The notes beneath the pieces were generated by a model. It saw only the letters and a list, made by a program, of their open reading frames with translations, searched no databases and was not told where the DNA came from. The position numbers and the translations under genes were made by a program. This document shows positions 3,895 to 22,402 of a DNA stretch of 44,823 nucleotides, piece after piece. Source of the stretch: a virus; IMG/VR virus record IMGVR_UViG_3300017917_002205, positions 1 through 44,823 of that record; one strand, given 5' to 3'. How positions within the stretch are numbered: position 1 is the first letter of the stretch; every line of letters begins with the position of its first letter.

Positions 3895-5310
3895 TTAATA
3901 TCCTTTTTTCTTTAACACAGTCTTCATTGCTTCTTGCCACATAGAAGTTTTCTCCTTGGCTTCATCAATGATTTCTTCTCCGCCTGCTGCTTTTGGTCTT
4001 GTAGCATCACCAGAAACTCTTTTTGCTGCTTGAGCTTTTTTAGCTTCATACATCTTTTTTCTCTTCTCTAATAATGCAATATCTTTTTTAATTTCTTTAA
4101 TTGCATTTTTATCAACCATTTCCTTAACGTCGTCACTTTCGGTCATAGTTATTTTATTTTTTAATTCTTCGATTTTCTCTTGAATTTTTGTAGCTTTATA
4201 TTCGTATGCAGCAACTTCGCCTAATTTTTCAATTTCCTTTAAGTGTTTTTCAATTGCTCTTTTCTTAGCTTCTGAAAGTGTTTCTCTATTCTTATCTTTT
4301 GAAACAGTTTTTCCTTCTCTTGTAGGACCGTATTCTTTTTCCCATTCTGATTGTTTCATATAACCAAATCTCTCAGAATCATCGTCCATATTATAAGTGA
4401 AAGCTGTTCCTTTAGCACTACGAGCTGTCATGTTATCTTGGTAGAGTGTTTTCTCTTCAGGTTTTCCGTAAGGGTATGTGTAAACTACATAAGCTAATTT
4501 GTCGTAAGGAGGAAATTCTGCTTCTCCTAAACCTAAGTCTTGTCCTAAAGTTAACGCTCTGTTACGAAGTCTATCAGCTTCACTATAATCTTTACCGGTG
4601 TAAGCTCTGTGACCTAAGTCGTAGATAGCATCAGCCTTTCTTCTAAGTGCTTCAGCGTCTGTATTTGTGTTTTCCATTTCCGTAAGGTGTTTTTTAACTA
4701 CTCTTTTTTTACTTGTGGTGTTATTTTTTGATTCATTCAATTTAACAGGTTCCATTCCTGAAGATTTGTATTTGCCTGTTATTTCTTTAGTTGTACCTAA
4801 ACCAGGAGCATCCTCAGTATATCCGATGCCTTTAATGCCAAATGCTCCATCTTTAATATAGTACATTGGGTCTTTTTCAAGGTTCTTAAATACGATCTTC
4901 TTAAGTTCCTCTTCTGTCTTCTCTGCATTTTTAGGATCTTTCATCTCAGCATAATATCCTTTTAGAATTTCAGCTGTTGAAATATTGTTGTTATTATTCT
5001 TATCTTCGTAATCATACCCGGCAACTTCTTTTTCTTTTACAGACTTATCTGTATCTTTCAAAGTAGCTTTGATTGCTTCTGTATTTTCGTTAAAAATTTG
5101 AAACCAGTTTGGCTCTCCTTTTCTAGAAACTAATACTCCGGTTATATTTTCAGAGATAATTCCTCTTTCTGTTAAATTATGTATTGCTTGATCAAATGTA
5201 AGTGCGCCTGTCACTACATTAGGGAATAAGGTTCTAGCTTCTTTTATAAAAAGTTCTTTATTACCTTTACCTTCCTTGATCAGAGTGTATTTATCTTGTA
5301 GGCTTTTCAT
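3895..5310 (-). CDS. Mosaic prohead-core protein with internal L/I-x-E sites
   Basis: This 471-residue hydrophilic, Lys/Glu-rich protein lies immediately upstream of the protease, where T4 carries gp67 and gp68. I do not recognise the whole. It starts with a short tag ending in IKE (E13). Further Leu/Ile/Met-x-Glu sites lie at E193, E211, E347, E391 and E450, several followed by a small residue or Lys, as at gp21 cleavage sites. They divide the chain into a 14-193 module, a Tyr/Asp-rich 212-347 module and a Lys-rich coiled-coil region (348-430). I infer a core polyprotein cut in the prohead. It begins 3 nt after an exact TATTTATAA motif and ends 2 nt before gene 21. Confidence 0.7.
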   Translation of the reverse strand: MKSLQDKYTLIKEGKGNKELFIKEARTLFPNVVTGALTFDQAIHNLTERGIISENITGVLVSRKGEPNWFQIFNENTEAIKATLKDTDKSVKEKEVAGYDYEDKNNNNNISTAEILKGYYAEMKDPKNAEKTEEELKKIVFKNLEKDPMYYIKDGAFGIKGIGYTEDAPGLGTTKEITGKYKSSGMEPVKLNESKNNTTSKKRVVKKHLTEMENTNTDAEALRRKADAIYDLGHRAYTGKDYSEADRLRNRALTLGQDLGLGEAEFPPYDKLAYVVYTYPYGKPEEKTLYQDNMTARSAKGTAFTYNMDDDSERFGYMKQSEWEKEYGPTREGKTVSKDKNRETLSEAKKRAIEKHLKEIEKLGEVAAYEYKATKIQEKIEELKNKITMTESDDVKEMVDKNAIKEIKKDIALLEKRKKMYEAKKAQAAKRVSGDATRPKAAGGEEIIDEAKEKTSMWQEAMKTVLKKKGY

Positions 5311-5330: not shown

Positions 5331-5552
5331 TTATTTCCAAAGATCCTTGTATTCCATACCCTTGGCTGCTTTTCTAGTCTTGGCTTTATTTACAAGCTTC
5401 CATCCCATCTTTAAATAATAATTACGGGAAGTACCTTGGGCATTTTTATTAGGGTTAAAAGCATAAGGAGTATTATAAGCACCTGCTGCTCCGGAGGTTG
5501 ATTCTTCTTCTAGCAATTCTTTAAGTTGGTGCTTAAATTCATCCCTAGTCAT
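5331..5552 (-). CDS. Small prohead-core protein, gp67-like in position
   Basis: This is a 73-residue protein between the portal block and the protease. The N-terminal helix MTRDEFKHQLKELLEEES resembles a T4 capsid-targeting sequence and ends in Leu-Leu-Glu-Glu. It is followed by a Gly/Ala-rich, then basic, stretch (GAAGAYNTPYAF...KTRKAAKG). I have seen the GAAGAYxTPxAF type of segment in mosaic head proteins of other T4-like phages. Length and place match T4 gp67 (80 residues), but T4 gp67 is acidic and this one is not, so homology is unproven. The inferred role is an internal peptide released by gp21. Confidence 0.7.
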   Translation of the reverse strand: MTRDEFKHQLKELLEEESTSGAAGAYNTPYAFNPNKNAQGTSRNYYLKMGWKLVNKAKTRKAAKGMEYKDLWK

Positions 5553-5554
5553 AA

Positions 5555-6388
5555 TTACAACTGGTTTATTAATTCGTAATACTGTAGTAAATCTATGATT
5601 GAATCATTGGTAACTTTACCAGTCTTAGAGATTGGCTGGATGTATTTAAGTACTTCTACAAGTTTGATTTGCATTACCTTTTCTGAGCTTTGCTTAATTT
5701 TCTTCTTAAGGGTTTCTCTTACTTCATTAATTCTGGTGTTGTAGTAGTCTTTTAACTTATCTGTATTATCAATAGAGTTAATAACTTCTCTTAGAACTTC
5801 CTTCTGTTGAGTGTTTAAATGATCATACTTATCATTAAATTTCTCTAAAAGAAGTCTGTAGGTTAGCACTCTTAAGTCTTTACTGTACCCTTTATACTCT
5901 TCAAGTAACTCATCCACCGGTGTTATAACTGCAGCTTTTGTCAAATGCTCTAAAAGTGTAACTTTGTTATTGATAGTGGTTTGCGGTGTTACTTTATCTG
6001 AGGTTTGATTTTCAATTAGGTTGTTTAATGCTGCAAATATTTTATAGTTATTAACTTTAACTTTAAAAAATTTCTCAACATTGTAATTATCTTTAATCTC
6101 TTTTACAAGATTATATTTCTGTTTTCTAATCTCAGATCTTTTTAATTTAGTTGATGTTTCAACTAAGGTGTTGATGATCATCTCAGCTTTAGCCTCAGTC
6201 AGGTTTTTATGAGCTGTTAATTGCTCGTACAATTTATACTCTTTCCCTAATTCTGTATTAACAAAATACTTTTTAAGAATATTGATAGCGGCAGAATTTT
6301 TACCTTCCAAAGTATCGGAGGTTATCTGCCTTACCAGAAGTTCAAAAAGAAGTCCTGTATTTCTAAATTTCGAGTGCTTGATTTGCAT
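5555..6388 (-). CDS. Conserved T4-like head-region protein downstream of the portal gene
   Basis: This 277-residue, mostly helical and Lys-rich protein starts MQIKHSKFRNTGLLFELLVRQI. This kind of N-terminus, followed by an ELGKEYKLYE segment, recurs in a family encoded beside the portal gene in marine T4-like phages. Its function is unknown to me. Place suggests a role in the prohead core or initiator. One Leu-Thr-Glu site occurs in NLTEAKAEM. A TTG codon lies directly upstream (6389-6391), but the ATG at 6388 is chosen. A variant start motif (TATTTATTA) lies about 20 nt before it. The gene ends 2 nt before the 73-residue core gene. Confidence 0.75.
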   Translation of the reverse strand: MQIKHSKFRNTGLLFELLVRQITSDTLEGKNSAAINILKKYFVNTELGKEYKLYEQLTAHKNLTEAKAEMIINTLVETSTKLKRSEIRKQKYNLVKEIKDNYNVEKFFKVKVNNYKIFAALNNLIENQTSDKVTPQTTINNKVTLLEHLTKAAVITPVDELLEEYKGYSKDLRVLTYRLLLEKFNDKYDHLNTQQKEVLREVINSIDNTDKLKDYYNTRINEVRETLKKKIKQSSEKVMQIKLVEVLKYIQPISKTGKVTNDSIIDLLQYYELINQL

Positions 6389-6422
6389 CAATATATGTTT
6401 TTTAATAAATATGTGTAAATTA

Positions 6423-8312
6423 TTATTCCCTAATTTGACTCTCGTCTAATAGACCATTAGCTTTTCTTTCTCCTTCAAAAATCATCTTTTTCTTAGATGG
6501 AATTTCTTCTAATATTCTTGTGATTTTAGAAAATTCTCTCTTAGTTGCTTCCATTGCATACGGTGAAGTTTTATCTCTACCATACCCTTCTTGGTCGTCA
6601 ACTTTGTTTGCTTTTCTACCAAGTCTATCCATTCCTAAAGGATCTTCTGTACCATTGATAAAAGATGCTTTTTCTCTAGGACGGCCCATTTCTGGTTCGT
6701 CTTCATTGTAACCATCCGGTACTGAGCCTGGTCTTGTGTAGACTCTTCCTTTACCGTATGCTGTTGCAATGTCGTGAGGAGTTCCGTAAGTTTCTCCAGA
6801 TTCTAAAGGATCATTTCCTTCGTTTTCTATTTGAGATAATCTGAATTTACGCTTAGCATCTTCTCTAACCAGGTCTCTCATTTCTTCATACTCATCCTGG
6901 CTTAAGTGGAAGATATTATCATAAATCCAATCAGAAGAAATTAACTGAGATTCCATCATTTGAGTTGCAAGATCCATTTTTTCTTTTAATAACGCTACTC
7001 TTTCCTGATCATAAATGATTGAAGGAGTGGTTAATGATAATTCAAAATTGGTTAATGCTTCGTCTCTATATCCTTGAATGTATAAATGCACGAATGCAAT
7101 CTTATATAACTCAGAAACTATGATTCTCTGTATTTTTTCTATTGTTCTACCAAAGCGAATATCTTCTGCAGCCAAAGTAGCCTTTCCTTGTAATTTTTCA
7201 TCATAACCAAGGAATGCTTTTGGTATTCTTAAGGCAGCAAATAATTTATCCCTAAGGTAATTTACGTCTGTAATACCGTCATACTGTAATCCTCCTAAAG
7301 TATCAATTTTAGTTGCAGTGTCATTACCACGTACCGGGATATAAAAATCCTCCATTAAGTTCTGCATGTTGTACTTTAAATTATATTCACCTGTCTGCTG
7401 GTCGATATAAGGAGTACGCTTCATTTTAGTAATAGCCTTCTGCATGAAGCCTTCAACTTCATTAGGAGGAATACCACCGACATTCATGTAGAAAATTCTC
7501 TTCTCAGGAGCTCTTACAATTCTATGAACTAACATTGCATCTTCCATCAAAGTATACTGCTTGAATAATTTTCTAGCAGGTTCAATGTAAGAACGTCCAT
7601 AAGGTAAGAAATTAACGTCTGTTAAAAGACGGAAGTGGGCTATTTCGTAATTGTCGAAATAAATAGATTTGGCATCGTGCTGATTAGGAGTTTTAAAGTA
7701 TCCATAAGTATCAGCGGCCAAGCCGTCTGGGTCATAACGGAATCTAACAGCAGTTGGATTTTCTGAATCATAATGTTCTTGTCTTTCTATATTGAATGCT
7801 GAGAATGGAATTACATTATAAACACCGTACTTTTCTGAAGCTTCTAATTTCAAGAAAAAGTCTCCGTATTTACACATGTTTCTAATCCACCAGCTTAAAT
7901 TAAATTCAACATTTAATACATCATAAAATAAATTATAAAGTATTTTCTGTACATTCTCATCATTTGATCTGATGTGAAGCACTTCTCCCATATCATTCTT
8001 AAGAGTAGATTCTTCTGATAGAATATCTAAGGCTGAAGCAATGATTGCATCAGTATCCATAGCATCATATTCAGAATATAACTGTGTTCTTAAAGTCTGA
8101 TAATTGAAAGATGATTGATATCCGTATAACGAAGTCGGGGAAGTTGTATAAATTCTGTTGTATCTTGCTACTAAAGAATTATTTTCTAATTCTCCAGACA
8201 TCTGAATTTGATTTGTATCGGCAACTTTAAGTTGATCACCCCCAACGTTCCTTATAATTACATCTGTTGAGAATAATCTACGTAGTCTCGAAAATACACT
8301 AGTGTCTGCCAT
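6423..8312 (-). CDS. 20: Portal vertex protein gp20
   Basis: This 629-residue protein is the dodecameric portal, through which DNA enters and leaves the head and on which the prohead is nucleated. The length is slightly above T4 gp20 (524). Family signatures include the N-terminal YRxxxTTSPTSLYGYQ-type region, DILSEEST, a LTDVNFLPYGRSYIEPARK segment, and VGGIPPNEVEGFMQ followed by a conserved Lys/Arg-rich strand, then LRIPKAFLGYDE. The C-terminal 120 residues are charged and Gly/Pro-rich, probably disordered. It directly follows the terminase gene; in T4 the sheath (18) and tube (19) genes separate them. A TATTTATAC motif lies 18 nt before ATG. Confidence 0.95.
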   Translation of the reverse strand: MADTSVFSRLRRLFSTDVIIRNVGGDQLKVADTNQIQMSGELENNSLVARYNRIYTTSPTSLYGYQSSFNYQTLRTQLYSEYDAMDTDAIIASALDILSEESTLKNDMGEVLHIRSNDENVQKILYNLFYDVLNVEFNLSWWIRNMCKYGDFFLKLEASEKYGVYNVIPFSAFNIERQEHYDSENPTAVRFRYDPDGLAADTYGYFKTPNQHDAKSIYFDNYEIAHFRLLTDVNFLPYGRSYIEPARKLFKQYTLMEDAMLVHRIVRAPEKRIFYMNVGGIPPNEVEGFMQKAITKMKRTPYIDQQTGEYNLKYNMQNLMEDFYIPVRGNDTATKIDTLGGLQYDGITDVNYLRDKLFAALRIPKAFLGYDEKLQGKATLAAEDIRFGRTIEKIQRIIVSELYKIAFVHLYIQGYRDEALTNFELSLTTPSIIYDQERVALLKEKMDLATQMMESQLISSDWIYDNIFHLSQDEYEEMRDLVREDAKRKFRLSQIENEGNDPLESGETYGTPHDIATAYGKGRVYTRPGSVPDGYNEDEPEMGRPREKASFINGTEDPLGMDRLGRKANKVDDQEGYGRDKTSPYAMEATKREFSKITRILEEIPSKKKMIFEGERKANGLLDESQIRE

Positions 8313-8330
8313 TGCTATTAATCAATATAA

Positions 8331-8339
8331 GTATAAATA
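8331..8339 (-). promoter_or_regulatory. TATTTATAC start motif before the portal gene
   Basis: The coding strand has TATTTATAC, a one-base variant, 18 nt before the portal ATG and directly after the terminase stop codon. Confidence 0.4.
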
Positions 8340-8340
8340 G

Positions 8341-9915
8341 TTAATAAATCCAGCTTATATCTTCTTTTCCTCCTTTTCCATCGTCTATTTCATAAGGGTT
8401 TCTTACGTTGGACGGTAGGTAGGCAGCTTGGTAGGTTGGTTTTGCCGTGGAAATATTATTGAGCATGTTACGGGTTAGGTCCATTCCCTGCTGTCTGAAT
8501 TTTAAAGCAGTGTCTCTGATGTACATTCCTATACCAAAAGACATTACTAAGTCATCATTATAACCATGCTGTGCTTCTGCTCTACCATTCTTCCATACAA
8601 ATACTTTCATTTCTTCAATCAAGCGTCTGGATTGAATGGTTACGGATTTTTCATTAACGTATTCTTGAAATTTACCAACAATAATTGGTCTGGTTCTTTG
8701 GTTTGTTGAGAATCCTGCTACCAGGCTTGAGTTTGGATCGTATTGATCAAAGTAAGATTCTGCTGTAATGTTACCATTTCTTGGAGAATAGTAAAGATTA
8801 CTGTAGCCTCTATCGATAACAGTCTGAATTGTTGACCATCCTACAGATGCATTCTCAATTACTAGTAGTGCATCATTATATTCACTTGCTATTCCCACAA
8901 GTAGATGACCAAATTCCTTTGTTCCTAATTGTCCTCTGTATTCTCCTACCTGTACGTTGTTCTCAACATCGATAATATGGAAGGCAGAATAGTCTTTTCC
9001 ATCACCTCTAGCCACGTCCGCTACTACCATATAGGATCTTGAGTAGTCTGCCGGTTCCCAGATCCATAAATTCTGATCTGCACCGCGTCTCTCCATAGGT
9101 TCTGTGACGTAGGTCTGTTGGTAGAACTCTAAATACTCTCCGTAGAAGACAGTATCTCCTGAGGTTGAGAAATCACAGTCACACTCCTGTGCTGCAAGTC
9201 TTGGATCTCCTAGTAATTCATCTTGTCTTTTTCTCCATTCATCGTTTCTTTCCGGGTGTACGTACCAAGGTAATTTAATCGGTAGAAAATCATTCTCTCC
9301 TGATTCAGCTCTTACCCAGGTCTGGTGAAACCAGTTACCGGTACCGTATGGAGTTGATAATACAATCGCTCCTCCTCCAGTTGCTAAGGTTTGCTGTGCT
9401 GATGCCCATGTTTCTGCAATGTTATCAATGAAGGCAGCCTCGTCAATTAGTAGTAATGATACAGCTTCTGAACGAGCAGAGTCTGAATTTGATGATTTGG
9501 CTTGTATTTTTGACCCGTTTGACAGTCTTAGAGACAGTTTATTATGTTCTACTGCCGGGACTGTTAACCAAGATGGTAGATTTTCATACATAAACTGCAC
9601 TTTTGATACAAGATTTCGTGCGGTTGCCTGTGTTGTTGCAAGGGTTAGAACGTTTTTATCTTTGTGAAAAAGCATTAACCACAGTGCATATCCTGCTCCT
9701 AAGGTGGAAATACCTAACTGTCTTGACTTTAAAACTATAGAATAAGGGTGATCTTGGAAGTGTTTTAGTACTTTTTCCTGAAAAGGATATAGGTGAAATA
9801 AGATCCTACCCCTCTGAGGATGTTGTATAAAACAATACTTCTTCATAAAGTGTACTGGATCTACAACACACTTTACATATTCCTGCCTTATAACTGCTTT
9901 TAAGTCTTGACTCAT
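8341..9915 (-). CDS. 17: Terminase large subunit gp17 (DNA-packaging ATPase/nuclease)
   Basis: This 524-residue motor protein packages concatemeric DNA into the prohead through the portal and cuts it. The ATPase part shows an adenine-side segment (HLYPFQEKVL), a Walker A at about 63-70 (KSRQLGIS) and a Walker B (LLLIDEAAF, 154-162). The RNase H-like nuclease has its first Asp in VVADVARGDGKDYS (D300), then LVIENASVGW and a late Asp region (GYNDDLVMSFG). The Walker A lacks the usual GK[ST] lysine seen in T4 gp17 (SRQLGKTT). The lysine is at the front instead, as in deviant Walker A loops. The N-terminal extension of T4 gp17 is shortened. No small terminase was identified in the window. Confidence 0.95.
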   Translation of the reverse strand: MSQDLKAVIRQEYVKCVVDPVHFMKKYCFIQHPQRGRILFHLYPFQEKVLKHFQDHPYSIVLKSRQLGISTLGAGYALWLMLFHKDKNVLTLATTQATARNLVSKVQFMYENLPSWLTVPAVEHNKLSLRLSNGSKIQAKSSNSDSARSEAVSLLLIDEAAFIDNIAETWASAQQTLATGGGAIVLSTPYGTGNWFHQTWVRAESGENDFLPIKLPWYVHPERNDEWRKRQDELLGDPRLAAQECDCDFSTSGDTVFYGEYLEFYQQTYVTEPMERRGADQNLWIWEPADYSRSYMVVADVARGDGKDYSAFHIIDVENNVQVGEYRGQLGTKEFGHLLVGIASEYNDALLVIENASVGWSTIQTVIDRGYSNLYYSPRNGNITAESYFDQYDPNSSLVAGFSTNQRTRPIIVGKFQEYVNEKSVTIQSRRLIEEMKVFVWKNGRAEAQHGYNDDLVMSFGIGMYIRDTALKFRQQGMDLTRNMLNNISTAKPTYQAAYLPSNVRNPYEIDDGKGGKEDISWIY

Positions 9916-9917
9916 AA

Positions 9918-10316
9918 TTAATAGAAGATACCTACTAGTAGTATAATACTAGAAACTCCATATGCAATATACTTTTGTATTCTCTGAGCTAGATATGCTT
10001 TCTTGTATTCAGCAATAATAGAGTCTTTATTAGTTATAATATTCTTGTAATCTTTTTCAATTTTAACGTAGGTAGCGATTGTGCTATCCTTATAAGATAT
10101 AACAGTGTCTTTATGTAGAATAATTTGCTGTAGGGTAGTGATAGAATCTCTAGCAAAACCTAACTGCTTTCCACAGTAAGTTCTTTCTTCTTTAATGATT
10201 AAAGCTTTTCTTAAAGTGTTACAAGGTACACAGCAAGTATCAATCGAAGCTTTCTGTGAATAGAGCGGTGACGTCATTATTAGACATAGCACCAATACGC
10301 TTAATATCTTCTTCAT
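9918..10316 (-). CDS. Secreted, tail-anchored coiled-coil protein; possible spanin partner
   Basis: The 132 residues begin with a clear signal peptide (MKKILSVLVLCLIMTSPLYSQ). Tyr-Ser-Gln at the cleavage point is typical of Bacteroidetes. A Cys cluster (CCVPC) follows, then a helical segment with repeated DS/TI motifs and a C-terminal hydrophobic helix (about 113-131). Its start overlaps the preceding gene by 77 nt in another frame, like Rz/Rz1 pairs. Together with the upstream protein it could bridge inner and outer membrane during lysis. There is no proper lipobox, so it is not a standard o-spanin. The role is inferred from topology and overlap only. Confidence 0.65.
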   Translation of the reverse strand: MKKILSVLVLCLIMTSPLYSQKASIDTCCVPCNTLRKALIIKEERTYCGKQLGFARDSITTLQQIILHKDTVISYKDSTIATYVKIEKDYKNIITNKDSIIAEYKKAYLAQRIQKYIAYGVSSIILLVGIFY

Positions 10317-10587
10317 GTTTTTTATGTTCTTTAGCAGCTAAAACTGCAGTGTTTCCTAATTTAGTTGTTAAGATTTTAATCTTATTTTCCTGGATGTTAT
10401 TTAAAGAATCAAACCTAGCTATTTCTTTTTTACTTGTTAGAATAGCGTTATTTAAGGAATCGATTGTTTTTTGATAACCTTCAACATTAGGTAGGCTTGT
10501 CATGTCTTTAACGTGTAGGGAGTATATAACAGCACCTCCTAAAATAATTAGTAAAACTATAATTATGTTTTTTATATTCTCTTTCAT
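10240..10587 (-). CDS. Membrane-anchored coiled-coil protein, possible i-spanin
   Basis: This 115-residue protein has an N-terminal transmembrane helix (IIIVLLIILGGAVIYSL, about 8-24), then a periplasmic helical part with heptad-like spacing (about 40-98). The topology and size match inner-membrane spanins (Rz). Its 3' end overlaps the next gene by 77 nt in a different frame, and its 5' end overlaps the upstream cupin-like gene by 4 nt (ATGA). No holin or endolysin was recognised near it. Other small membrane proteins could look the same. Confidence 0.6.
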   Translation of the reverse strand: MKENIKNIIIVLLIILGGAVIYSLHVKDMTSLPNVEGYQKTIDSLNNAILTSKKEIARFDSLNNIQENKIKILTTKLGNTAVLAAKEHKKHEEDIKRIGAMSNNDVTALFTESFD

Positions 10588-10856
10588 GTTTTATGTATTT
10601 TTAAAATTAGGTTCCCTGTTCCTTTTACAACCCTGTGCCAGTCGTGTCTTAATATAAATATAGATGTTTTCGGTTCTAATTCAAAAGGAAGTCCATCATC
10701 AAATTGAAAACCCCAACCTTCACCGCATTCTAATACTTCTACCATTCGGTCTTCATCGTCCCTATGCCATAGAAGTTCGATTGGATCTATATCGGGTCCA
10801 AATTCTCTTATAATATATTCGTCGGTTATTTCTAAATCTTTGTAAGGTTTCTCCAT
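10584..10856 (-). CDS. Small cupin-like protein
   Basis: This 90-residue protein has the pattern of a small single-domain cupin: LLWHRDDEDRMVEVLECGEGWGFQ, a strand pair ending in LEPKTSIFILRHDWHRVV, and KGTGNLILKI. His/Asp/Glu residues at about H30, E39 and H75 could bind a metal. Similar short proteins occur in other phages, but I know of no established substrate. It overlaps both neighbours (25 nt upstream, 4 nt downstream), so it is translated in one unit with the spanin-like pair. Confidence 0.6.
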   Translation of the reverse strand: MEKPYKDLEITDEYIIREFGPDIDPIELLWHRDDEDRMVEVLECGEGWGFQFDDGLPFELEPKTSIFILRHDWHRVVKGTGNLILKIHKT

Positions 10857-11314
10857 GTTACAACTTCATCTAATTGCTGCTTTGTCCAGTGACTGTAATA
10901 GTCTGTTAATTTAAGACTGTTTGACTTAGAAGTCAAGTCTGCTAGGTCTTGAACTACCCATAAATAACAATCCGGGAATGTGGTTGTTACTCCGTTAATT
11001 ACAAAAGGGTTCCTTGGATCATTATCTAAAACTACTTTATTGTCAGGTATAAAAATTTCATTAAGACTCTTAGTTTTAATTTCTAAAGTTTCAATACTGT
11101 AATTTTCGTAAGCTGGTAGATAAAAAATACAGACTTTATAAGTTATTATATCTGCATCTCTTATTTGATTTTCTATATTATCAAGGTCTGTCTCCTGAAT
11201 AGTGTATTCTCTATTATTAATAGCTGTTCTAGCAAAGGGACAGATAGGTTTATTACTTAGTTCTTGCTTTGGTGCAGTTAGGTGGTTAAACCACTTATCA
11301 AGACTTATTACCAT
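10832..11314 (-). CDS. Unknown conserved protein with CPFARTA motif
   Basis: I do not recognise a defined family for this 160-residue protein. The N-terminal part has WFNHLTAPKQ followed by PICPFARTA (about 24-31), a segment I associate with a small group of uncharacterised phage and bacterial proteins. The C-terminal half is rich in aromatic residues (PDCYLWVVQDLADL and a Tyr-Ser-His-Trp-Thr segment near 142). No signal peptide or membrane helix is seen. It overlaps the upstream HiPIP-like gene by 17 nt and the cupin-like gene by 25 nt. Confidence 0.6.
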   Translation of the reverse strand: MVISLDKWFNHLTAPKQELSNKPICPFARTAINNREYTIQETDLDNIENQIRDADIITYKVCIFYLPAYENYSIETLEIKTKSLNEIFIPDNKVVLDNDPRNPFVINGVTTTFPDCYLWVVQDLADLTSKSNSLKLTDYYSHWTKQQLDEVVTWRNLTKI

Positions 11315-11732
11315 CTTTTTTATCCGTTATCGGACCTCCAACAACCCAGGCATCACAAGTTCTTGCAGCTGCACATTTAAACTTAAGGAACCTACAGTAA
11401 CCTAAATCCCCGGCTTCAATAACATCAAAAGGATCTTCAGAACCTTCATCATCACCTATTCCCTTTGCAATACAGTCTAAAGTCTTTTTAGTTATATCAA
11501 ATGCTGCACAATTACCACAGAGTGATTTCTTAGCTTCTTCTATAGAATCTAATTTCCACATATCTGCTTTAGCTTGCCAGAATTTCTCATTAGGTTCGTT
11601 TGGATTTAATGGACCGTACCCATACTCATTAATTGCCTTCTGTCTGTTCTGAAGGTTTAGTTCGATGTTCTGCGTAGGTGCAGGGCATTTTCCAATCTCT
11701 GCTTCGCTTAATATGTCTAATAGGTTAATCAT
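11298..11732 (-). CDS. HiPIP-like cysteine-rich protein with capsid-type N-terminal tag
   Basis: This is 144 residues from the ATG at 11730-11732, which overlaps the upstream stop as ATGA; a start 15 nt further upstream is possible. The N-terminal helix MINLLDILSEAEIG has Leu-Ser-Glu (E10), like a capsid-targeting sequence with a gp21 site. Four cysteines follow the spacing of high-potential iron-sulfur proteins: C72-x2-C75 (SLCGNCAAF), C87 and C113 in a GYCRF context. Further Cys occur at 120 and 126 (KCAAARTCDAW). The middle (GYGPLNPNEPNEKFWQAKAD) is typical of a conserved phage family of unknown function. I infer a 4Fe-4S or zinc site. Its neighbours include a ferritin-like protein two genes upstream. 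Confidence 0.7.
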   Translation of the reverse strand: MINLLDILSEAEIGKCPAPTQNIELNLQNRQKAINEYGYGPLNPNEPNEKFWQAKADMWKLDSIEEAKKSLCGNCAAFDITKKTLDCIAKGIGDDEGSEDPFDVIEAGDLGYCRFLKFKCAAARTCDAWVVGGPITDKKDGNKS

Positions 11733-12484
11733 TTTGTTTTTCCCCAAGTTTTTCCTTTTCCAGGTGTTTTACATTGTGCTGCTGTTGGTCTACAAGCAGG
11801 ATATTTAGAGCGTTTCTCTCCTTCTTTTCTTCCGCAGGATTTATAACCTCCGCTTCCGTCTGGTGCGTTACAGTCTACCCATCCTTTTTCTTTTCCTTTT
11901 GCTCCTTGACGGCTAAACCACTTATGTAATGATTCAGCTTCTTCTAAATTTTCAACTTGAACTAGGTTTATTTTAATTTTTTTATTTCCTAGAGCCCAGT
12001 TAGCTACAAGTCTATGATGTCCATCATAAATTACTTTTTCACCGTCTGGGAATTCAACAACATTTATAATAGGTAATTCTTTTGTATTTGTAATTATTTG
12101 TTTTACTTTATTGCTTTGGATATTAGGTTGTGTAATATGAATGTCTTCTGTATTCACATACTGTTCCTGATCTTTATCTTTATTTTTTTCAAATAATTCG
12201 ATTACTTCACTCCAGCTATGTTGACTTTTATTAAAGATGCCTTCTATATTTTTTGCATCATCAAATAGCTTTCCCTTAGGTAACTCATCAATTTTTTGTT
12301 CTGCTGAAAAGGCTGTATCTTCTTTTAAGTCTTTCCAAATCTCACCTTGACGGCATCTAACCACAGCACCTGATTTATAGGCTGAAGGTTTGTCGTATTT
12401 ACGATCAGCAATACGAAGACACCTATCACGCTTCTCTTTTTCTTCTAAAAGAATCTGCTGTAGTATGTCTGTAAGCTTGGTCAT
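11729..12484 (-). CDS. ParB/sulfiredoxin-fold protein in a mosaic with cysteine modules
   Basis: This 251-residue protein has three parts. It starts with a capsid-type tag, MTKLTDILQQILLEEKE (Ile/Leu-Leu-Glu at 13-15). A short Arg/Cys module follows (about 19-52, with RKYDKPSAYKSGAVVRCRQG). The core (about 108-177) is ParB-like: VNTEDIHITQPNI, then VIYDGHHRLVANW (DGHHR at 154-158), the motif used for nucleotide or DNA binding in ParB and Srx-type proteins. The C-terminus (198-251) is a small Cys/Lys module (GWVDC...KSCGRK...YPACRPTAAQC). ParB-fold proteins in phages include nucleases and CTPases, and the activity here is unknown. Start tag and mosaic build suggest virion cargo. Confidence 0.7.
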   Translation of the reverse strand: MTKLTDILQQILLEEKEKRDRCLRIADRKYDKPSAYKSGAVVRCRQGEIWKDLKEDTAFSAEQKIDELPKGKLFDDAKNIEGIFNKSQHSWSEVIELFEKNKDKDQEQYVNTEDIHITQPNIQSNKVKQIITNTKELPIINVVEFPDGEKVIYDGHHRLVANWALGNKKIKINLVQVENLEEAESLHKWFSRQGAKGKEKGWVDCNAPDGSGGYKSCGRKEGEKRSKYPACRPTAAQCKTPGKGKTWGKTK

Positions 12485-12491
12485 AAGTTTG

Positions 12492-12614
12492 TTAAGAAAA
12501 TAATAAATCGAATGTTAAAGTTCTCTTCATTAACAAGTAAGCAGTGTATTTAGGAGGTAAGTTGATACTTATTCTTTTTCTTGCTCTGCTTTTTCTTTGT
12601 CTTTTTAATTTCAT
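12492..12614 (-). CDS. 40-residue very basic protein
   Basis: This short frame has its ATG overlapping the stop codon of the ferritin-like gene (TAATG), a common translational coupling. The product begins MKLKRQRKSRARKRISIN and has ten Arg/Lys in its first 14 residues, then a more hydrophobic tail (YTAYLLMKRTLTFDLLFS). It could bind nucleic acid or be packed with the DNA. No homologue is recalled. The support is the overlap, the otherwise empty 129-base gap and the strong composition bias. Confidence 0.45.
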   Translation of the reverse strand: MKLKRQRKSRARKRISINLPPKYTAYLLMKRTLTFDLLFS

Positions 12615-13159
12615 TAGAAGTAAGTCTGTTCGTAATATAATATTTCAAAGGAATTAGCAACGTTTATAAGTTGTGCTGCATTTAATAGGTCTGAATATTC
12701 TGCTACTGATTCTACTTGCCCGGTTCTTAGTGTTTGTAAGAAATCAAACGTAGATAAGTCTGAGGAGAATATAGTTGTTGATACGTTGTTATAAGCTAGT
12801 AATAAATCTAATTCTAATTTATATGCTTTGTTAACAATATCAATGAGGTTTGTAAAGTCTGGTATTAATTTGATTGGTGCAATCACCGGAAGTACATTCC
12901 AATCTACCATGTATTTTTGTAGCATCTCTGCATGAGTTAATTCATTAGCAGCTTCTTGTGTGAAGAATGCAGTTGCTTTTAAATACCCTTTATCTGCACA
13001 CCAGTTTGCTGCATTTCTATAAAAGTAATGAGCGGTATATTCGTCTTTTAGTCTCTCAGTAAGCATTAAAACCACCTGAGGGTCTAAGGTAACTGGTATC
13101 ATAACATCAGCAGGATTTGCTGATTGCAATTCATTCAAAGTTTTTAACTTAGTTTTCAT
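12614..13159 (-). CDS. Ferritin-like diiron protein with possible capsid tag
   Basis: This 181-residue four-helix protein is of the ferritin superfamily. Iron ligands line up with bacterial ferritin: E40 in LKDEYTAHYFY, E73 and H76 in AANELTHAEML (ExxH), E116 in YKLELDLLLAY, and a Gln148-Val-Glu150 segment in the fourth helix. The 33-residue distance between the first two Glu equals that of E. coli FtnA. Ferritins oxidise Fe(II) with oxygen or peroxide and store iron. The N-terminal extension MKTKLKTLNELQSANP carries Leu-Asn-Glu (E10) and is not part of the ferritin fold. It looks like the tags of neighbouring proteins, so it may send the enzyme into the head. An exact TATTTATAA lies 9 nt before ATG. 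Confidence 0.85.
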   Translation of the reverse strand: MKTKLKTLNELQSANPADVMIPVTLDPQVVLMLTERLKDEYTAHYFYRNAANWCADKGYLKATAFFTQEAANELTHAEMLQKYMVDWNVLPVIAPIKLIPDFTNLIDIVNKAYKLELDLLLAYNNVSTTIFSSDLSTFDFLQTLRTGQVESVAEYSDLLNAAQLINVANSFEILYYEQTYF

Positions 13160-13168
13160 ATAATGTTA

Positions 13169-13177
13169 TTATAAATA
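13169..13177 (-). promoter_or_regulatory. TATTTATAA start motif before the ferritin-like gene
   Basis: This is an exact motif in the 20-base gap, 9 nt before the ATG, a longer spacing than the usual 3. Confidence 0.5.
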
Positions 13178-13179
13178 GC

Positions 13180-13974
13180 TTACCAGTAACCTGAGTAAGA
13201 TCCTTTAAGTCCTAATAAAGAAGCGTATCTTGGTAGGCGGCAGGCCCAATATCCTGGTTTAGTTTTATCTTTTTTACCTGCGCAGTTGTGTCTTTTTGCA
13301 AAGTTCACTCTTGCCTCAGAGTCGTTTATTTTAGCTTTTAGGCCGGTTGTTCCACCAAAAGAAACTTTCTTAATACGTTTGGTTTTTGGATCTTTTACGT
13401 ATACATAAAATTTCTTAGAACCACCACGCTTTGGTTTACCTAACGGTACTTCTTTCCCTTGATATTTAGCTTCTCTTAACTGCCCAGCAATCGCTTGTGT
13501 GAATCCATACTGCCTTAATTTCTGCTCTAACTCCTCTAAAGATGCAGCATCAAAATCATATTCGTTAGTATCTACATAATAACCGTCCCGTCTCTTATAG
13601 ATTTCTGCCATATTGCCTTCACGGTCTCCGAAAGTTGCAATATGATCGTTAGAGTTAAAAGTTCCTTCGTCAAGCATTGGTAAGTCTAAAGGGACTAAGT
13701 CTCCTTCATATAAACCGTATTCACCTAAGTGAGTTTCGGTTATGATCTGCTTATCATCTGCCCCTACATCAATGATGTTTCTGGAATATAAAGTTCTAGC
13801 TTCTTTCCATAAGTTTAGAAAAGCAGGTGAACCGTACCTAAAGGTATTTTCTGTGAGTGGTTTCTTATTTTTAATATGGTAAAGCAGGTTCTCAGAGAGA
13901 GGTTGCTGGAAGGTTATTCCTTCGTTTAATAGAGGAGCTTTTCCTCCGCAAGTATTACATCCACAGCTGCACAT
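13180..13974 (-). CDS. Mosaic head-cargo protein with many L/I-x-E sites and a DUF5872-like end
   Basis: This 264-residue protein is built of short modules. It starts with a Cys-rich MCSCGCNTCGG. Leu/Ile-x-Glu tripeptides end at E18, E28, E42, E80, E103 and E168. The segment after E42 (FRYGSPAFLNLWKEARTLY) and the C-terminal module (about 169-253, KKFYVYVKDPKTKRIKKVSFG then CAGKKDKTKPGYWACRLPRY) recur in structural or core proteins of other T4-like phages. The C-terminal module resembles DUF5872. Six sites in one small protein fit stepwise cutting by gp21 into peptides. It follows an exact TATTTATAA by 3 nt. Confidence 0.7.
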   Translation of the reverse strand: MCSCGCNTCGGKAPLLNEGITFQQPLSENLLYHIKNKKPLTENTFRYGSPAFLNLWKEARTLYSRNIIDVGADDKQIITETHLGEYGLYEGDLVPLDLPMLDEGTFNSNDHIATFGDREGNMAEIYKRRDGYYVDTNEYDFDAASLEELEQKLRQYGFTQAIAGQLREAKYQGKEVPLGKPKRGGSKKFYVYVKDPKTKRIKKVSFGGTTGLKAKINDSEARVNFAKRHNCAGKKDKTKPGYWACRLPRYASLLGLKGSYSGYW

Positions 13975-13977
13975 ATA

Positions 13978-13986
13978 TTATAAATA
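13978..13986 (-). promoter_or_regulatory. TATTTATAA start motif before the 264-residue mosaic gene
   Basis: This is an exact motif followed by TAT and ATG. It touches the stop of the upstream nuclease gene, whose last codon begins at 13987. Confidence 0.5.
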
Positions 13987-14961
13987 TTATGAGAATAGAG
14001 TATTAGTTATGATGTTTAAAGCACCCTGGTTAGTTGATACTCCTTTTAGTAATTGCTCGTCTGATAGTCCTTCTAGTAATTCTGAGGTTATTTGAGTGTA
14101 TTTAATGTTTCCTTTTTGGCTTACATTAACAATATATCCTCCAATACCCGGTTTTTTTGATAATTTAGTTGTTATTAGACGTCTAAGCATTTCTGCTGTA
14201 CCGTGTTCTGGTGTGATTTCACCTTCAATATGAAGTGCTTTTTTAACTGCGTCAATATTATCGTAAATATTCTTTATTAGAGCGTATTGACTTGCTATCT
14301 TCCTTAGATCACTTTGATCAAAGTCAGAAAGTCTTTTAAATGCTTCTAATAATTCATCAGTGTTAAAAGTCATTGTTCCTGCAGTTCTTTTAGCTCCTTG
14401 AAAAGTACCTACTAGTGTAGAAACTCCAAACACAACACCTAAGATTGCAATATTATCTTTATCTGATCCGTAACGACCTAAGGTCATTCCGGTAGTTTCA
14501 TAAGCTTTAACTTCAAGCCCGGTTTTACCATCTATTATTAAATCTGGGTTATCACTTCCCCTGCTATCTTCAACAGTATGTCCTCTAGATAAAAGCCAAT
14601 ACATAGCAATTTCACCGTTTCCAGATCCTTTGCTTCCTGCACTATCGATATCCTTTTGTGATTTTGGAGGTGATATAGGGTATAATTTAGAGAAAATCTT
14701 CTCATCTTCCCCTGTTAGGTTTTGATTTTTAGGTTCTCCTACTATGTAAACACGGGAAGGTTGTGGTATTTCTCCGTTCTCATCTCCGGTTAAGACTTTA
14801 GCTATAATTCTGTCATACTGGCTTCTGTCTTTAGGAGCTGCTGATGTTTCTACTTCAAATAATTCAAATAATAGTTTCCTATCAGCTTCATTACTTAAAT
14901 CCGGGTATCCTTTAGGAAACTTGTATGAAACCTGTCTTATAAATTTTTCTAAAATATCCAT
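13987..14961 (-). CDS. PD-(D/E)XK-type endonuclease-like protein
   Basis: This 324-residue protein has a restriction-endonuclease fold signature: E117 in GNGEIAMYWLL, D140 in SDNPDLIID and E150-x-K152 in LEVKAYE, with typical spacing. It is probably a nuclease or a DNA-repair/packaging-linked enzyme; the target cannot be told. The first 40 residues (to LFELFEVETSAAP) include Leu-Phe-Glu steps that could act as a removable tag, but the evidence is weaker than for its neighbours. It overlaps the upstream gene by one base (ATGxxxTAA-type junction). A nuclease packed with the DNA would need to be kept inactive, so cytoplasmic action is equally possible. Confidence 0.65.
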   Translation of the reverse strand: MDILEKFIRQVSYKFPKGYPDLSNEADRKLLFELFEVETSAAPKDRSQYDRIIAKVLTGDENGEIPQPSRVYIVGEPKNQNLTGEDEKIFSKLYPISPPKSQKDIDSAGSKGSGNGEIAMYWLLSRGHTVEDSRGSDNPDLIIDGKTGLEVKAYETTGMTLGRYGSDKDNIAILGVVFGVSTLVGTFQGAKRTAGTMTFNTDELLEAFKRLSDFDQSDLRKIASQYALIKNIYDNIDAVKKALHIEGEITPEHGTAEMLRRLITTKLSKKPGIGGYIVNVSQKGNIKYTQITSELLEGLSDEQLLKGVSTNQGALNIITNTLFS

Positions 14962-15458
14962 TAAACTTCCTCCGGTGTTTCTTCTGCTGGTGTTTCTTCT
15001 CCGCCAAGTGGTTCTTCCAAGGCTGCTTCCATGTTACCACCACCGCCGGTGCTTGAGCCTGTATCCATTCCTCCAGTATCTGCTTCATTTTCAGGATTAA
15101 CTGCTTTACCGTACCTGAGTAATCTAGCGATAGAATCTATTGCTTGATCTTCTTCACCTAAATTAAGTAAATAGTATCTTTTTCCTTCAACTTCAGCCAT
15201 CCAAGATCTTCCTAAATCTGATAAATAAAAAGAAAAATTATTTTCTAGAATTACTCTGAAAGTAGGTGGTTTTGGTGCTACCCATTGTATGTCTTTCACA
15301 AACAAATTAAACTGTGGAGACATCAAATCGGTGAGAATAGAGATCATATCCGGTACTTGATTTAATATCTTATACTCTTGGTATTTATTAATACCCTCAC
15401 TTTTCATCTTTTTAATGATAGTCTTTTTAATTACTGATCTTAGTTCTTGTTTGTTCAT
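14961..15458 (-). CDS. Unknown protein with acidic Gly-rich tail
   Basis: This 165-residue protein has a basic helical N-terminus (MNKQELRSVIKKTIIKKMK), a compact middle with VILENNFSFYLSDLGRSWMAEVEGKRYYLLNLGEEDQ, and a low-complexity C-terminus (about 120-165) rich in Gly, Thr and Glu. The same kind of N-terminal helix is seen in head-associated proteins of T4-like phages. No enzyme motif is present. It is translationally coupled to the nuclease-like gene downstream. Confidence 0.6.
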   Translation of the reverse strand: MNKQELRSVIKKTIIKKMKSEGINKYQEYKILNQVPDMISILTDLMSPQFNLFVKDIQWVAPKPPTFRVILENNFSFYLSDLGRSWMAEVEGKRYYLLNLGEEDQAIDSIARLLRYGKAVNPENEADTGGMDTGSSTGGGGNMEAALEEPLGGEETPAEETPEEV

Positions 15459-15480
15459 TGGTAGCTAAAGATACGGATTT

Positions 15481-16698
15481 TTATTTTGTAAAGCCACCCT
15501 TTGTTTGTGTATGCGGCATTACTTTATACATTGTTTTGATTGGTGACATTTCGTTCTCATTCACTGAATCAAAGTAATGTCTTTCGCTTAAATTTATAGT
15601 TTTTCTCTTTTTTAAATCGAAAGGAGTTAAGAAAGGTTTACCTTCTGAATAAGAATGAACTGCTTGGTAGATTCTACCATCTGCTCCCCTTACTACATCC
15701 CCAATGTTTAAAGCAGTTCCTTCTGCATCTCTTTGAGGTTCGTTATTCACCATCAAAGGAGCAGTATTAGAAATTGATTCTCCTTCAAGGTAACTTCTAA
15801 CTGCATTAAGGTAATCTTCTGCCTTAGTTAACTTGGATTGAACCCATGCCTGTAATTGTGTTTTTTCTCCAATAGAATCAAAAAGTGATTTAGCATTTTT
15901 AACAATTGAGATTAATTGTGTTCTAGCCATTTGACCTTCGTAGTCGTATTCTTTTGCTTCAAGGATTGGATGCTTTGCTTCAGTAACTGGTGCACGGTGT
16001 GGTGTAGTTAAATCAGGATTCCAACCTTTAATCATGTTAATCCAGAAAGTCTTGATTGCTCTTAAAGCTTCTTCTCTAGATTCTTCTGGTATTCCTTTAA
16101 GGCGTTCTTCGAAGTCCATAAGTACTTCCTCCATAGTCATTTCTACAGATGGACCAGATACATCAACGTAGTCATCATCATCCATGGTTTTTTCGAAGAA
16201 ATCGTAGACTTCTTTAAGTTCAACATCTACTCCTTGATCTGTGTATTTTTTAATATCAGAAACGTTTGTTCCTTTCTTCATTACAACCGCTCCTGATTTT
16301 GGGTCAGCATCTACTTCTTTTAACTTGGTTAGTACACTAGTAACGACTTCTTTTTTTAAGCTACGGTCTTTAGCTGCTTTTCTCATAGGTTCGGTCTTGT
16401 TACCATCTTTATCTAAATCAAGATAATCCGGCTTAGCTCCTTCTTTAAAAGGTCTTGGGCAAGGTGTACCTTTAACGTGAACGTGTCCACATCTTCCGCA
16501 TAATGTACCTTTAGCTTCAGTAACCCCTTTATTATGTCTCCTTTGACTCAGCTCCGCTTTAGCGTCTTCTAAATCTTGTTTAGTATCCGCAACTCCCCTC
16601 TCGTCTTTTTTTTGAGTATAATACTGTAATTCATTACTTAGGTTTATGATATGTAGAGCTAATTGATTAGCGGTTAAATCTTTAAGAGATTCTGTCAT
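15481..16698 (-). CDS. Mosaic head-associated protein: zinc ribbon, EF-hand-like and helical modules
   Basis: This 405-residue chain has Val/Ile-x-Glu sites at E61 (GVTEAKG), E240 (PVTEAKH) and E247 (ILEAKE). Between them sit a small zinc ribbon (CGRCGHVHVKGTPC, 67-80), a Ca-binding-like loop (PDYLDLDKDGNKTE, 90-103), an acidic region (about 165-210), and after E247 a helical module (YDYEGQMARTQLISIVKNAK, 251-270) that I recall from head or core proteins of other marine T4-like phages. The C-terminus is a small beta-rich region (GDVVRGADGRIYQAVHSY). Such a patchwork fits a polyprotein cut in the prohead. No enzyme activity is apparent. Confidence 0.7.
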   Translation of the reverse strand: MTESLKDLTANQLALHIINLSNELQYYTQKKDERGVADTKQDLEDAKAELSQRRHNKGVTEAKGTLCGRCGHVHVKGTPCPRPFKEGAKPDYLDLDKDGNKTEPMRKAAKDRSLKKEVVTSVLTKLKEVDADPKSGAVVMKKGTNVSDIKKYTDQGVDVELKEVYDFFEKTMDDDDYVDVSGPSVEMTMEEVLMDFEERLKGIPEESREEALRAIKTFWINMIKGWNPDLTTPHRAPVTEAKHPILEAKEYDYEGQMARTQLISIVKNAKSLFDSIGEKTQLQAWVQSKLTKAEDYLNAVRSYLEGESISNTAPLMVNNEPQRDAEGTALNIGDVVRGADGRIYQAVHSYSEGKPFLTPFDLKKRKTINLSERHYFDSVNENEMSPIKTMYKVMPHTQTKGGFTK

Positions 16699-16727
16699 GG
16701 TTTTTACTATTTACTTTACGTTTAGTA

Positions 16728-17186
16728 TTAATACTTTTCTTTCAGAAAATGCTTGATTTGATCAACTACTTCTGTTTTGGTAGGTTTTTTAGTTTCTCCC
16801 ATTGGGTGCTGTGAAGGCATCTTAATATAAGCTCCAGGTATCTCCTGTCCATTCTCATCAAAATAACCACGTATAGACCCTAAACGGTTACCCATCTTTA
16901 CAGTTGCTAACATTGCCTCACCGCCTTTTGCTAATTCAATTCTAATAGGGTCTGGGAATATTACTTCGTTGTTTTTGTGGTCAAACTCGGTTCTAGTAGG
17001 GTCAACCATAAAGGCTTTAGCTACCATCGTCTGTTCCGGGGTTATATAACCACTAAAAGGATCTTCACCAGGTCCAAATACTTTATTCTCACTAGCTTCT
17101 TCTTTATTGTTTATAGGTTCATTATCGTTTTCTGCCATTAAGACGTACTTACGTCTCCAATTTGACATGTCAAAAGAGTTACTCAT
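16728..17186 (-). CDS. Unknown conserved phage protein, possibly capsid-tagged
   Basis: This 152-residue protein is not one I recognise. The N-terminus MSNSFDMSNWRRKYVLMAEND ends in Leu-Met-Ala-Glu, which could be a gp21-type site. The body contains FGPGEDPFSGYITPEQTMVAKAFMVDP and a basic C-terminal tail (KKPTKTEVVDQIKHFLKEKY). A TATTTATTA variant of the start motif lies 2 nt before the ATG. It ends 29 nt before the next mosaic gene. Confidence 0.6.
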   Translation of the reverse strand: MSNSFDMSNWRRKYVLMAENDNEPINNKEEASENKVFGPGEDPFSGYITPEQTMVAKAFMVDPTRTEFDHKNNEVIFPDPIRIELAKGGEAMLATVKMGNRLGSIRGYFDENGQEIPGAYIKMPSQHPMGETKKPTKTEVVDQIKHFLKEKY

Positions 17187-17200
17187 ATTAATAAATAGGT

Positions 17201-17770
17201 TTATTTTTTTAACTTTTCAAGATACTCAATAGCTTCCTGTTTTTGCTTTAATATCCTTTCCTTGTTTGTCTTAGACCAATTTTCTAGTTCACCAGATTCT
17301 GAGATAAAGCCATCATTACTTCCATTGATTAGATCATCGGTCCAGAGTTCAAAATTATCAATCAAAGCATCAATTTCAGAGTTGTGGATTGAATCATGAT
17401 ACTCGTCCCATTTTCCGGTTGCTTTTAATTTTGTTTCAAATCTAATCTGACAATCAAAGCAGTGGTGGTGTATGTTGTAAAACTGAGCATCGTAACGCCC
17501 TTTCATTAGGGTCTTACATTCCGGACAGAAGAGAGGCATTTTACCTAAGTCTCTTGCTTTCTGTAATTTAGAGACTGTTTGTTTTATTCCTCCTTTAATA
17601 GTCCACTGTCGACCATCCTCCTCCCAGATTTCACCTTCCTGTCTATCAACTTGGTTTTTTATATACCCAGAGGAAACACTGGTTTTTTCTCCGGTCTTTC
17701 CCTGTATTAGGTTTCGCATCCTTTGTAAGTCTGCTTCTTTAAATTCTTTTTTTAAAACTGATTCTTTCAT
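17201..17770 (-). CDS. Conserved T4-like zinc-finger protein
   Basis: This 189-residue protein starts KEFKEADLQRMRNLIQGK and continues with GYIKNQVDRQEGEIWEEDGRQWTIK and GIKQTVSKLQKAR, a pattern I recall from an uncharacterised family shared by marine T4-like phages. It carries a CxxC...HHCxxC zinc site (CPECKTLMKG...HHHCFDCQ, about 83-109). The rest is acidic and helical. Function is unknown. It lies 12 nt after the 1535-residue gene and is probably co-transcribed with it. Confidence 0.65.
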   Translation of the reverse strand: MKESVLKKEFKEADLQRMRNLIQGKTGEKTSVSSGYIKNQVDRQEGEIWEEDGRQWTIKGGIKQTVSKLQKARDLGKMPLFCPECKTLMKGRYDAQFYNIHHHCFDCQIRFETKLKATGKWDEYHDSIHNSEIDALIDNFELWTDDLINGSNDGFISESGELENWSKTNKERILKQKQEAIEYLEKLKK

Positions 17771-17782
17771 TTTATACTGGTG

Positions 17783-22390: not shown

Positions 22391-22393
22391 ATG

Positions 22394-22402
22394 TTATAAA
22401 TA
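22394..22402 (-). promoter_or_regulatory. TATTTATAA start motif before the polyprotein gene
   Basis: This is an exact motif, then CAT and ATG. It fills the whole gap after the RecB-like nuclease gene, whose stop codon begins at 22403. Confidence 0.5.

Follow-up and report, generated by a model that had tools for sequence, protein, structure and literature searches.

The virus record IMGVR_UViG_3300017917_002205 (IMG/VR; 44,823 nucleotides or 44.8 kb, analysed at full length and called the window here) is a contig of an aquatic T4-like phage that encodes a gp21 prohead protease and has the T4 head gene order on its minus strand. Several unrelated proteins encoded on this strand begin with short segments ending in Leu/Ile-x-Glu, which raises the question of what these N-termini do. 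In phage T4, a 10-residue capsid-targeting sequence (CTS) of internal protein IPIII suffices for packaging, and cleavage occurs at L/I-x-E (PMC9026906). An earlier note on positions 5331-17770 quoted six such proteins and suggested a cargo operon, in which different enzymes were recruited to the head by acquiring a tag. The N-termini of the window are very probably T4-type CTSs, removed by the gp21-family protease and used as exchangeable modules. The sequence shows the exchange of tags, their coincidence with gene boundaries, the sites, the protease and a match to the scaffold; from these we infer that, in this phage, the tagged proteins dock, are packaged and cut, and are injected with the DNA.

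Tagged proteins in the window

All six quoted proteins are present on the minus strand with the described N-termini. Five of the six genes lie inside the range, which also includes untagged genes; the 471-aa gene (3895-5310) is just outside it, as are, farther away, the strongest case, a 1535-aa protein that the note missed, and a 215-aa protein. The tagged genes are clustered with untagged genes interspersed, so the term operon is loose. Two of the six examples, the 73-aa and 471-aa proteins, are probably core proteins rather than recruited enzymes. The main tagged genes are as follows, with a slash at the predicted cut.

11298-11732, minus strand: Cys-rich "HiPIP-like" protein, tag MINLLDILSE/AE at 11703..11732
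11729-12484, minus strand: DUF5872/ParB-like protein, tag MTKLTDILQQILLE/E at 12443..12484
12614-13159, minus strand: ferritin (PF00210, E=3e-19), MKTKLKTLNE/LQSANPADVMIPVT, extension at 13088..13159
13921..13974, minus strand: first 18 aa of a 264-aa protein, MCSCGCNTCGGKAPLLNE/G, then LSE/N and LTE/N
16728-17186, minus strand: 152-aa protein, tag MSNSFDMSNWRRKYVLMAE/ND at 17130..17186
17783..22390, minus strand: 1535-aa polyprotein with a tag, two Pol-beta-type nucleotidyltransferase (NTase)-like domains, a NadD/NMNAT-like domain, a YKGKR domain and two HExxH segments
41596-42243, minus strand: 215-aa protein, N-terminus MNKQFTRMQKLAGVITE/N at 42193..42243 of the type called tag B below, with a core as in the scaffold C-terminus

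A strict site was defined as [LIV]xE[AGSN], counted at residues 6-27 for the window, and a relaxed site, for the same window count, as [LIVM]xE; besides Leu and Ile, the P3 position of tag ends also holds Val and Met. The 264-aa protein has six strict sites against 0.7 expected, and these are kept among relatives. For the 152-aa protein, the N-terminal head is conserved across 12 relatives whose bodies differ. The ferritin has an N-terminal extension of about 23 residues relative to bacterial ferritins, several free-standing examples of which start (their residues 1-3) aligned at residue 25 of the phage protein. Its site is unusual in having Leu at P1'.

Tag exchange among relatives

In the window alone the enrichment of Leu/Ile-x-Glu N-termini is marginal, and the case rests on relatives. 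These comprise 80 loci found by terminase similarity, 16 found with the 1535-aa protein (loci are labelled by L-numbers) and the whole genome of Flavobacterium phage immuto. The Flavobacterium immuto phages are the closest cultured phages by terminase (61%), and Methylophilales phage Melnitz also has related cargo genes. Proteins were grouped by residues 31 onward into 131 families. Across these, [LIV]xE[AGSN] is maximal at residues 11-15, with 2.6% per position versus about 0.4% elsewhere. Alignment of N-termini in relatives, which had been proposed as a check, gave 140 cross-family pairs scoring at least 45, from 33 families. The controls gave 0 (residues 31-55), 1 (residues 56-80), 1 (C-terminal 25 aa) and 1 (shuffled N-termini); the way the families were built removes homology from the interior and C-terminal controls but leaves the shuffled control unaffected. 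Across the complete genome of immuto, 13/37 head and cargo genes have the site, versus 14/179 genes elsewhere (p=5e-5). Tagged immuto proteins include MENFDLKKFLVE/N (KNV73_gp076), MADNFNLRSFLTE/N (gp077), ...RMQKLAGIITE/S (gp083) and ...LADLLLE/E (gp087). Three immuto genes distant from the head cluster (NC_055915.1) also carry tags, MENFDLKKFLVEN, MIKLIDLLTES and MKKQILSEQFKRMQFLAGIITES, at 1803, 24569 and 25061.

One body can carry many tags. The DUF5872/ParB-like body KRDRCLRIADRKYDKPSAYKSG of the window has at least seven different tags among relatives; the tags seen before it include MTKLTDILQQILLE/E, MVKLLDILKTVLE/E, MENLTLLVRKIFE/A, MAKLIDILTQILSE/E, MGKVNKAYIENIIKEILSE/K and MDNFDLRKYLAESKLDASLSE/E. 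The Cys-rich body is preceded by MINLLDILSE/A, MKLIDILSE/V, MDNFDLRKYLAENKLFE/A or ...EGKLYE. Conversely, one tag can precede many bodies. IMG/VR was scanned with the patterns M[DE]NF[DN]L[KR]K[YF]L[AV]E (tag A) and RMQKLAG (tag B), which occur in at least 149 and at least 97 distinct proteins, respectively. Their bodies form at least 125 BLAST clusters at 1e-3, a permissive family definition that misses remote homologues, and several clusters carry both tags. Near-identities of 9-12 residues occur on unrelated bodies, and in an alignment of 90 bodies conservation is essentially restricted to N-terminal positions. The search left residue 13 of tag A (P1') free; among the matches listed, all 149/149 proteins have Gly, Asn or Ser there, and a second [LIVMF]xE follows within 22 residues in 144/149. 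The codons of tag A show synonymous variation; therefore, selection acts at the protein level. A tag-A-like segment inside other proteins was seen as one weak YDLNTFF stretch, in a 278-aa-type protein. The gp21-family protease is encoded in 10 of the 11 tag-bearing records longer than 95 kb, a count without a base-rate control, and the one exception, at 98.8 kb, is the shortest of them. The tag strings were not found in a literature search of a set of PMC papers.

Recognizable families occur among the tagged bodies. An HD-domain hydrolase above the Pfam cut-off carries tag A, MDNFNLKKFLVENKLTYNSRIISEE (L207:364-954, minus strand). The protein at L281:3425-3988 (plus strand) is an Acb1-like (anti-CBASS) 2H phosphoesterase with an N-terminal tag B (26.8 bits versus a cut-off of 27). 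It had no match by phmmer against PDB and is a candidate for a pre-loaded anti-defence enzyme.

The 1535-aa polyprotein

The largest gene of the window encodes a polyprotein in which the same type of site recurs between domains.

22358..22390, minus strand: tag MTKLTSAIIKE/GGNVF, cut site after residue 11
21428..21436, minus strand: internal triplet L-T-E, residues 319-321, linking proteins encoded separately in relatives
20522..20530, minus strand: internal site ILE/AEIGKQTIAVF, residues 621-623, preceding the NadD-like domain
19991..20521, minus strand: NadD/NMNAT-like domain, approximately residues 624-800 (Foldseek 3e27, E=3.3e-5, prob 1.00; phrog_395, E=3e-6)
19979..19987, minus strand: internal site LTE/AYKGKRTDNG, residues 802-804, the same point as gene starts in L090, L094 and L095
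18443..18451, minus strand: internal site LTE/GAYDSVTRR, residues 1314-1316; shorter relatives L093-L095 end just upstream, and immuto has MAE/GRYDTVTNR

The immuto homologue begins M/GGNVFSST with in-frame stops upstream, and other relatives begin MIKLTSLLKQILNE/GGNVFGTT. The second half of the polyprotein is a gene of its own in immuto and seven other loci, starting M/SG(S/A/V)AGG. At residue 321, relatives read ACAGCATAATGTCAGG and the window reads ACATTAACTGAATCCGG. In DNA, the closest relatives have ACA GCATAATG TCA GG with overlapping stop and start, and the window has ACA TTA ACT GAA TCC GG, so that exactly L-T-E stands in place of the stop and start. At the residue-804 point, L090, L094 and L095 have tags of the form ...SILHE/TYKGKK or ...GMEE/TYKGKR. 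At residue 979 (LNE/VGEA), the VGEA segment is preceded in L093 by a tag with its site, and the corresponding sequence of L095 is MINLLDIIKE/IGDA. Sites 11, 321 and 804 coincide exactly, and site 1316 nearly, with gene starts or ends of relatives. With eight strict sites in 1535 residues, the chance of the three exact coincidences is about 1e-7 by our own arithmetic, if the boundaries are independent. The Pol-beta-like NTase folds show a weak Pfam match at residues 329-403 and Foldseek hits that include pol lambda; the HExxH segments are at residues 1243 and 1435. Another contig with the LTE fusion was sought, and the two matches were both unrelated reading frames; the fusion is therefore unique to this contig so far.

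The scaffold C-terminus and tag B

Tag B has a counterpart in the scaffold of the same head gene cluster.

3275..3892, minus strand: gp21-family prohead protease (PF03420, E=3e-34; phrog_207 head maturation protease, E=1e-58)
1107..2318, minus strand: gp22-type scaffold by position, in the order protease, scaffold, major capsid protein

The scaffold ends PVME/TNAMVERFQKLAGLI, with its putative docking end at about 1110-1148. The putative gp22 ends ...R[FWM][QKR]KLAG[LI]... in the window and in all 18 relatives with 3' end sequence, and this KLAG end lies about 15 residues beyond a conserved hydrophobic-x-E site. The N-terminal tag B is R-M-Q-K-L-A-G-[IVL]-x-T-E, and the scaffold end RMQKLAGLI of L044 matches many tags over nine residues. 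Several long records have the tag-B core both at the expected end of gp22, about 1.6-2.3 kb past the protease in the downstream direction, and at distant genes. It is possible, at slightly less than an even chance, that tag B is a mirrored copy of the docking end of gp22. A prohead-protease site would then separate docking peptide from body in both, cargo would use the scaffold's binding site, and one protease would cut all tethers, including the polyprotein joints. Since the gp22 C-termini of T4 and of cyanophage S-CREM2 are unlike their own cargo tags, any such mimicry of the scaffold is limited to tag B.

Proposed mechanism

Each tag, an exchangeable segment of 9-25 residues, would direct its protein into the prohead core by docking in the assembling core, with tag B perhaps at the site used by the scaffold C-terminus. 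After shell closure, the gp21-family protease would cut behind [Leu/Ile/Val/Met]-x-Glu, where the next residue is usually small or polar. The mature proteins would remain in the head and be ejected with the DNA. Tags are exchanged between proteins and have been added to enzymes. Where bodies are joined by the same triplet, one tag could carry several enzymes, which the protease would set free once they are in the head. The cargo of this phage likely includes the ferritin, the Cys-rich and DUF5872/ParB-like proteins, the NTase-like enzymes and the NadD-like enzyme. It is a reasonable guess that the NadD-like enzyme has a role in NAD supply in the host.

If this is true, a short N-terminal motif predicts from sequence alone which phage proteins are carried in the head. 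Many uncultured T4-like phages could then be surveyed for the first-minute effectors that they pre-load; these effectors are likely anti-defence and metabolic enzymes, and most have no annotated function. The motif would also account for non-structural enzymes that so far lack an explanation in the virion proteomes of cyanophages, and the polyprotein is a natural test substrate for prohead-protease specificity.

Weighing of alternative explanations

The shared N-termini could be peptides that stay uncleaved and dock, for example, onto the scaffold, the terminase or the replisome, in which case their x-Glu end would be incidental. Docking is indicated by the identity of the tag-B core with the C-terminus of the scaffold, and cleavage is a predicted step in this phage. 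However, the limits on P1' and the second [LIVMF]xE seen among the listed tag-A matches, the homologues that begin exactly at P1', the use of L-T-E alone as an entire fusion linker and the presence of the gp21 protease make this explanation unlikely. A resemblance by chance or composition would be favored by the frequency of acidic amphipathic helices at phage N-termini, by the rate of the site in immuto non-head genes, which is that of chance, and by the strict motif in the window alone (6/23 head-side genes versus 3/24 others, p=0.29). The relaxed motif gives 14/23 versus 6/24 (p=0.019). The single cross-family pair from shuffled N-termini against 140 observed, together with the near-identities across unrelated bodies, leaves chance with a negligible probability. 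The bodies could also be diverged homologues, with the N-terminus as the conserved part of a single folded family; many bodies are short, and the BLAST clustering would miss remote homologues. This is very improbable, as the bodies span an HD hydrolase, an Acb1-like 2H phosphoesterase, DUF5872, Cys-rich, NadD-like and ferritin proteins, the aligned bodies are conserved essentially at the N-terminus only, and the polyprotein tag is modelled with low confidence.

The AlphaFold2 (AF2) model covers residues 1-830 of the polyprotein, with a mean predicted local distance difference test (pLDDT) score of 69.6. Sites 11, 321, 623 and 804 are in segments with pLDDT<50, which hold 20% of residues (residues 303-330 at junction 321 and 620-629 at site 623), and sites 480 and 671 are ordered (binomial p=0.017). 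The possibility that the tags are part of a folded domain receives a divided answer: the tag is outside the domain in the polyprotein and, as an extension, in the ferritin, and the model of the HiPIP-like protein is unusable.

Several points weigh against reading the N-termini as cleaved CTSs. Besides the strict count in the window, low pLDDT can also come from a shallow alignment, and the alignment of the HiPIP-like protein was too shallow (pLDDT 38). The terminase, the portal, the 189-, 324-, 165- and 405-aa proteins and other genes of the cluster are untagged. The fused polyprotein was observed in this contig only, and relatives have untagged starts for its second half (M/SGSAGG) and, in immuto, its first half (M/GGNVF); therefore, these halves are either unpackaged there or packaged by other means. 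No virion proteome was found for the phage group of the window. The reading as exchangeable CTSs is still preferred, and the proposal that unrelated proteins were recruited through an acquired N-terminal tag is supported by the tag swaps, the occurrence of one tag on many bodies, the sites at gene boundaries, the protease and cyanophage virion mass spectrometry (MS).

Virion data and known systems

The virion MS data are those of S-CREM2 (PMC10665884). A T4-type motif, [FYL]xxF[LIMF]xE near the N-terminus, was chosen after viewing those N-termini and also fits T4 IPIII. It occurs in 6/52 detected versus 1/165 undetected proteins (p=9e-4), with 0.37 expected in 217 genes. A broad [LI]xE test of detected versus undetected proteins gave p=0.065. 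The tagged and detected proteins are a SAM hydrolase, Cas9, an APH-like kinase and an NMNAT-like cytidylyltransferase (OR473000, L346-L349), together with two hypothetical proteins. The S-CREM2 authors raised contamination as an alternative, and N-terminal tags are not mentioned in their paper (PMC10665884). Cyanophage orthologues of the NMNAT-like protein begin MKSFLNFFSE/A or MKKFSAFLTE/A, and the P-HM2 orthologue begins at the enzyme domain itself. NMNAT-like and other enzymes are known from T4-like cyanophage virions (PMC10665884, PMC9602691). In S-CREM2 and other cyanophages such enzymes carry N-termini of the MKxFxxF(L/F)(T/S)E type, which differ in sequence from the window-group tags.

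The window tags have close known counterparts in the CTSs of T4 IPI, IPII, IPIII and Alt (Mullaney and Black; PMC9026906), with which they share a length of about 7-20 N-terminal residues ending in [LI]-x-E. Also shared are the occurrence on unrelated proteins, a gp21-family protease in the same cluster and enzyme or effector cargo (PMC9026906). The S-CREM2 and Melnitz tags resemble the T4 internal protein CTS (MKTYQEFIAE), and the window tags are unlike it by eye. Tags of the window group (MDNFDLRKYLAEGRLLKE, RMQKLAGIITE, MINLLDILSE) occur on far more bodies than in T4, and tag exchange on one body, a polyprotein with internal L-x-E joints and a scaffold-matching tag also set the group apart. 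By pattern, the T4 genome (NC_000866) has four CTS-like starts, at 65.7, 66.4 and 73.9 kb and one more. This fourth start is at 19105-19130 on the minus strand and reads MKTFKEFI...

In the giant phages phiKZ and SPN3US, a gp21-related protease likewise removes propeptides from ejection proteins by cutting behind x-x-E, and the diverged paralogues gp53 and gp54 have identical N-termini there (PMC5694885). These propeptides are mostly longer, there is no confirmed gp22-type scaffold, and tags on dozens of unrelated bodies are unreported (PMC5694885). Polyvalent proteins (Iyer et al. 2017, PMC5512222) are large multi-enzyme phage proteins encoded near virion genes and proposed to be packaged, and they share Pol-beta NTase, HExxH metallopeptidase and ParB-like domains with the window group. 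By domain content the polyprotein at 17783-22390 resembles them, with several distinct enzymatic domains near virion genes. Processing of polyvalent proteins was proposed to be mainly by their own zincin domains (PMC5512222), whereas the L-x-E joints of the window point to the prohead protease.

Other genes of the head cluster

The putative cargo region (10000-22400) is flanked by terminase and baseplate genes. The remaining head genes are listed below.

8341-9915, minus strand: terminase gp17, no tag
6423-8312, minus strand: portal gp20, no tag
Between portal gp20 and the 73-aa gene, minus strand: 278-aa gene
5331..5552, minus strand: 73-aa protein, MTRDEFKHQLKELLEE/E, site KELLEE/ESTSGAAG
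3895..5310, minus strand: 471-aa protein, MKSLQDKYTLIKE/GKGNKE, seven sites versus 2.0 expected
1..1077, minus strand: 5' part of the major capsid protein gp23, N-terminus MSNVQTLLE/SANPW, 52.5% identity to immuto gp23

The 73-aa and 471-aa proteins are probably gp67/gp68-type core proteins and not cargo enzymes, because both sit between the portal and the protease as T4 genes 67 and 68 do. The protease has an N-terminal site of its own, ...LSLSE/GKGANG, and most relatives retain an xE/[GA] site; its immuto homologue is KNV73_gp070. The gp23 protein is likely processed near QLVIE/QSQ, a cut suggested by a conserved Glu after ENQAKQ.

An HNH-endonuclease-like gene, recognized by eye, is located at 2507-3232 (minus strand) between protease and scaffold. 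It has no homologue in the relatives compared and is a probable homing endonuclease insertion. Next to the terminase, at 9918-10587 (minus strand), two small overlapping genes are similar to an Rz/Rz1 spanin pair; one has a signal-peptide-like start (SPLYSQ) and the other an N-terminal membrane helix. The 405-aa protein at 15481-16698 (minus strand) contains an EF-hand-like stretch, DLDKDGNKT, and similar genes are found beside the tagged NMNAT gene in cyanophages S-RIM2 and S-CAM22.

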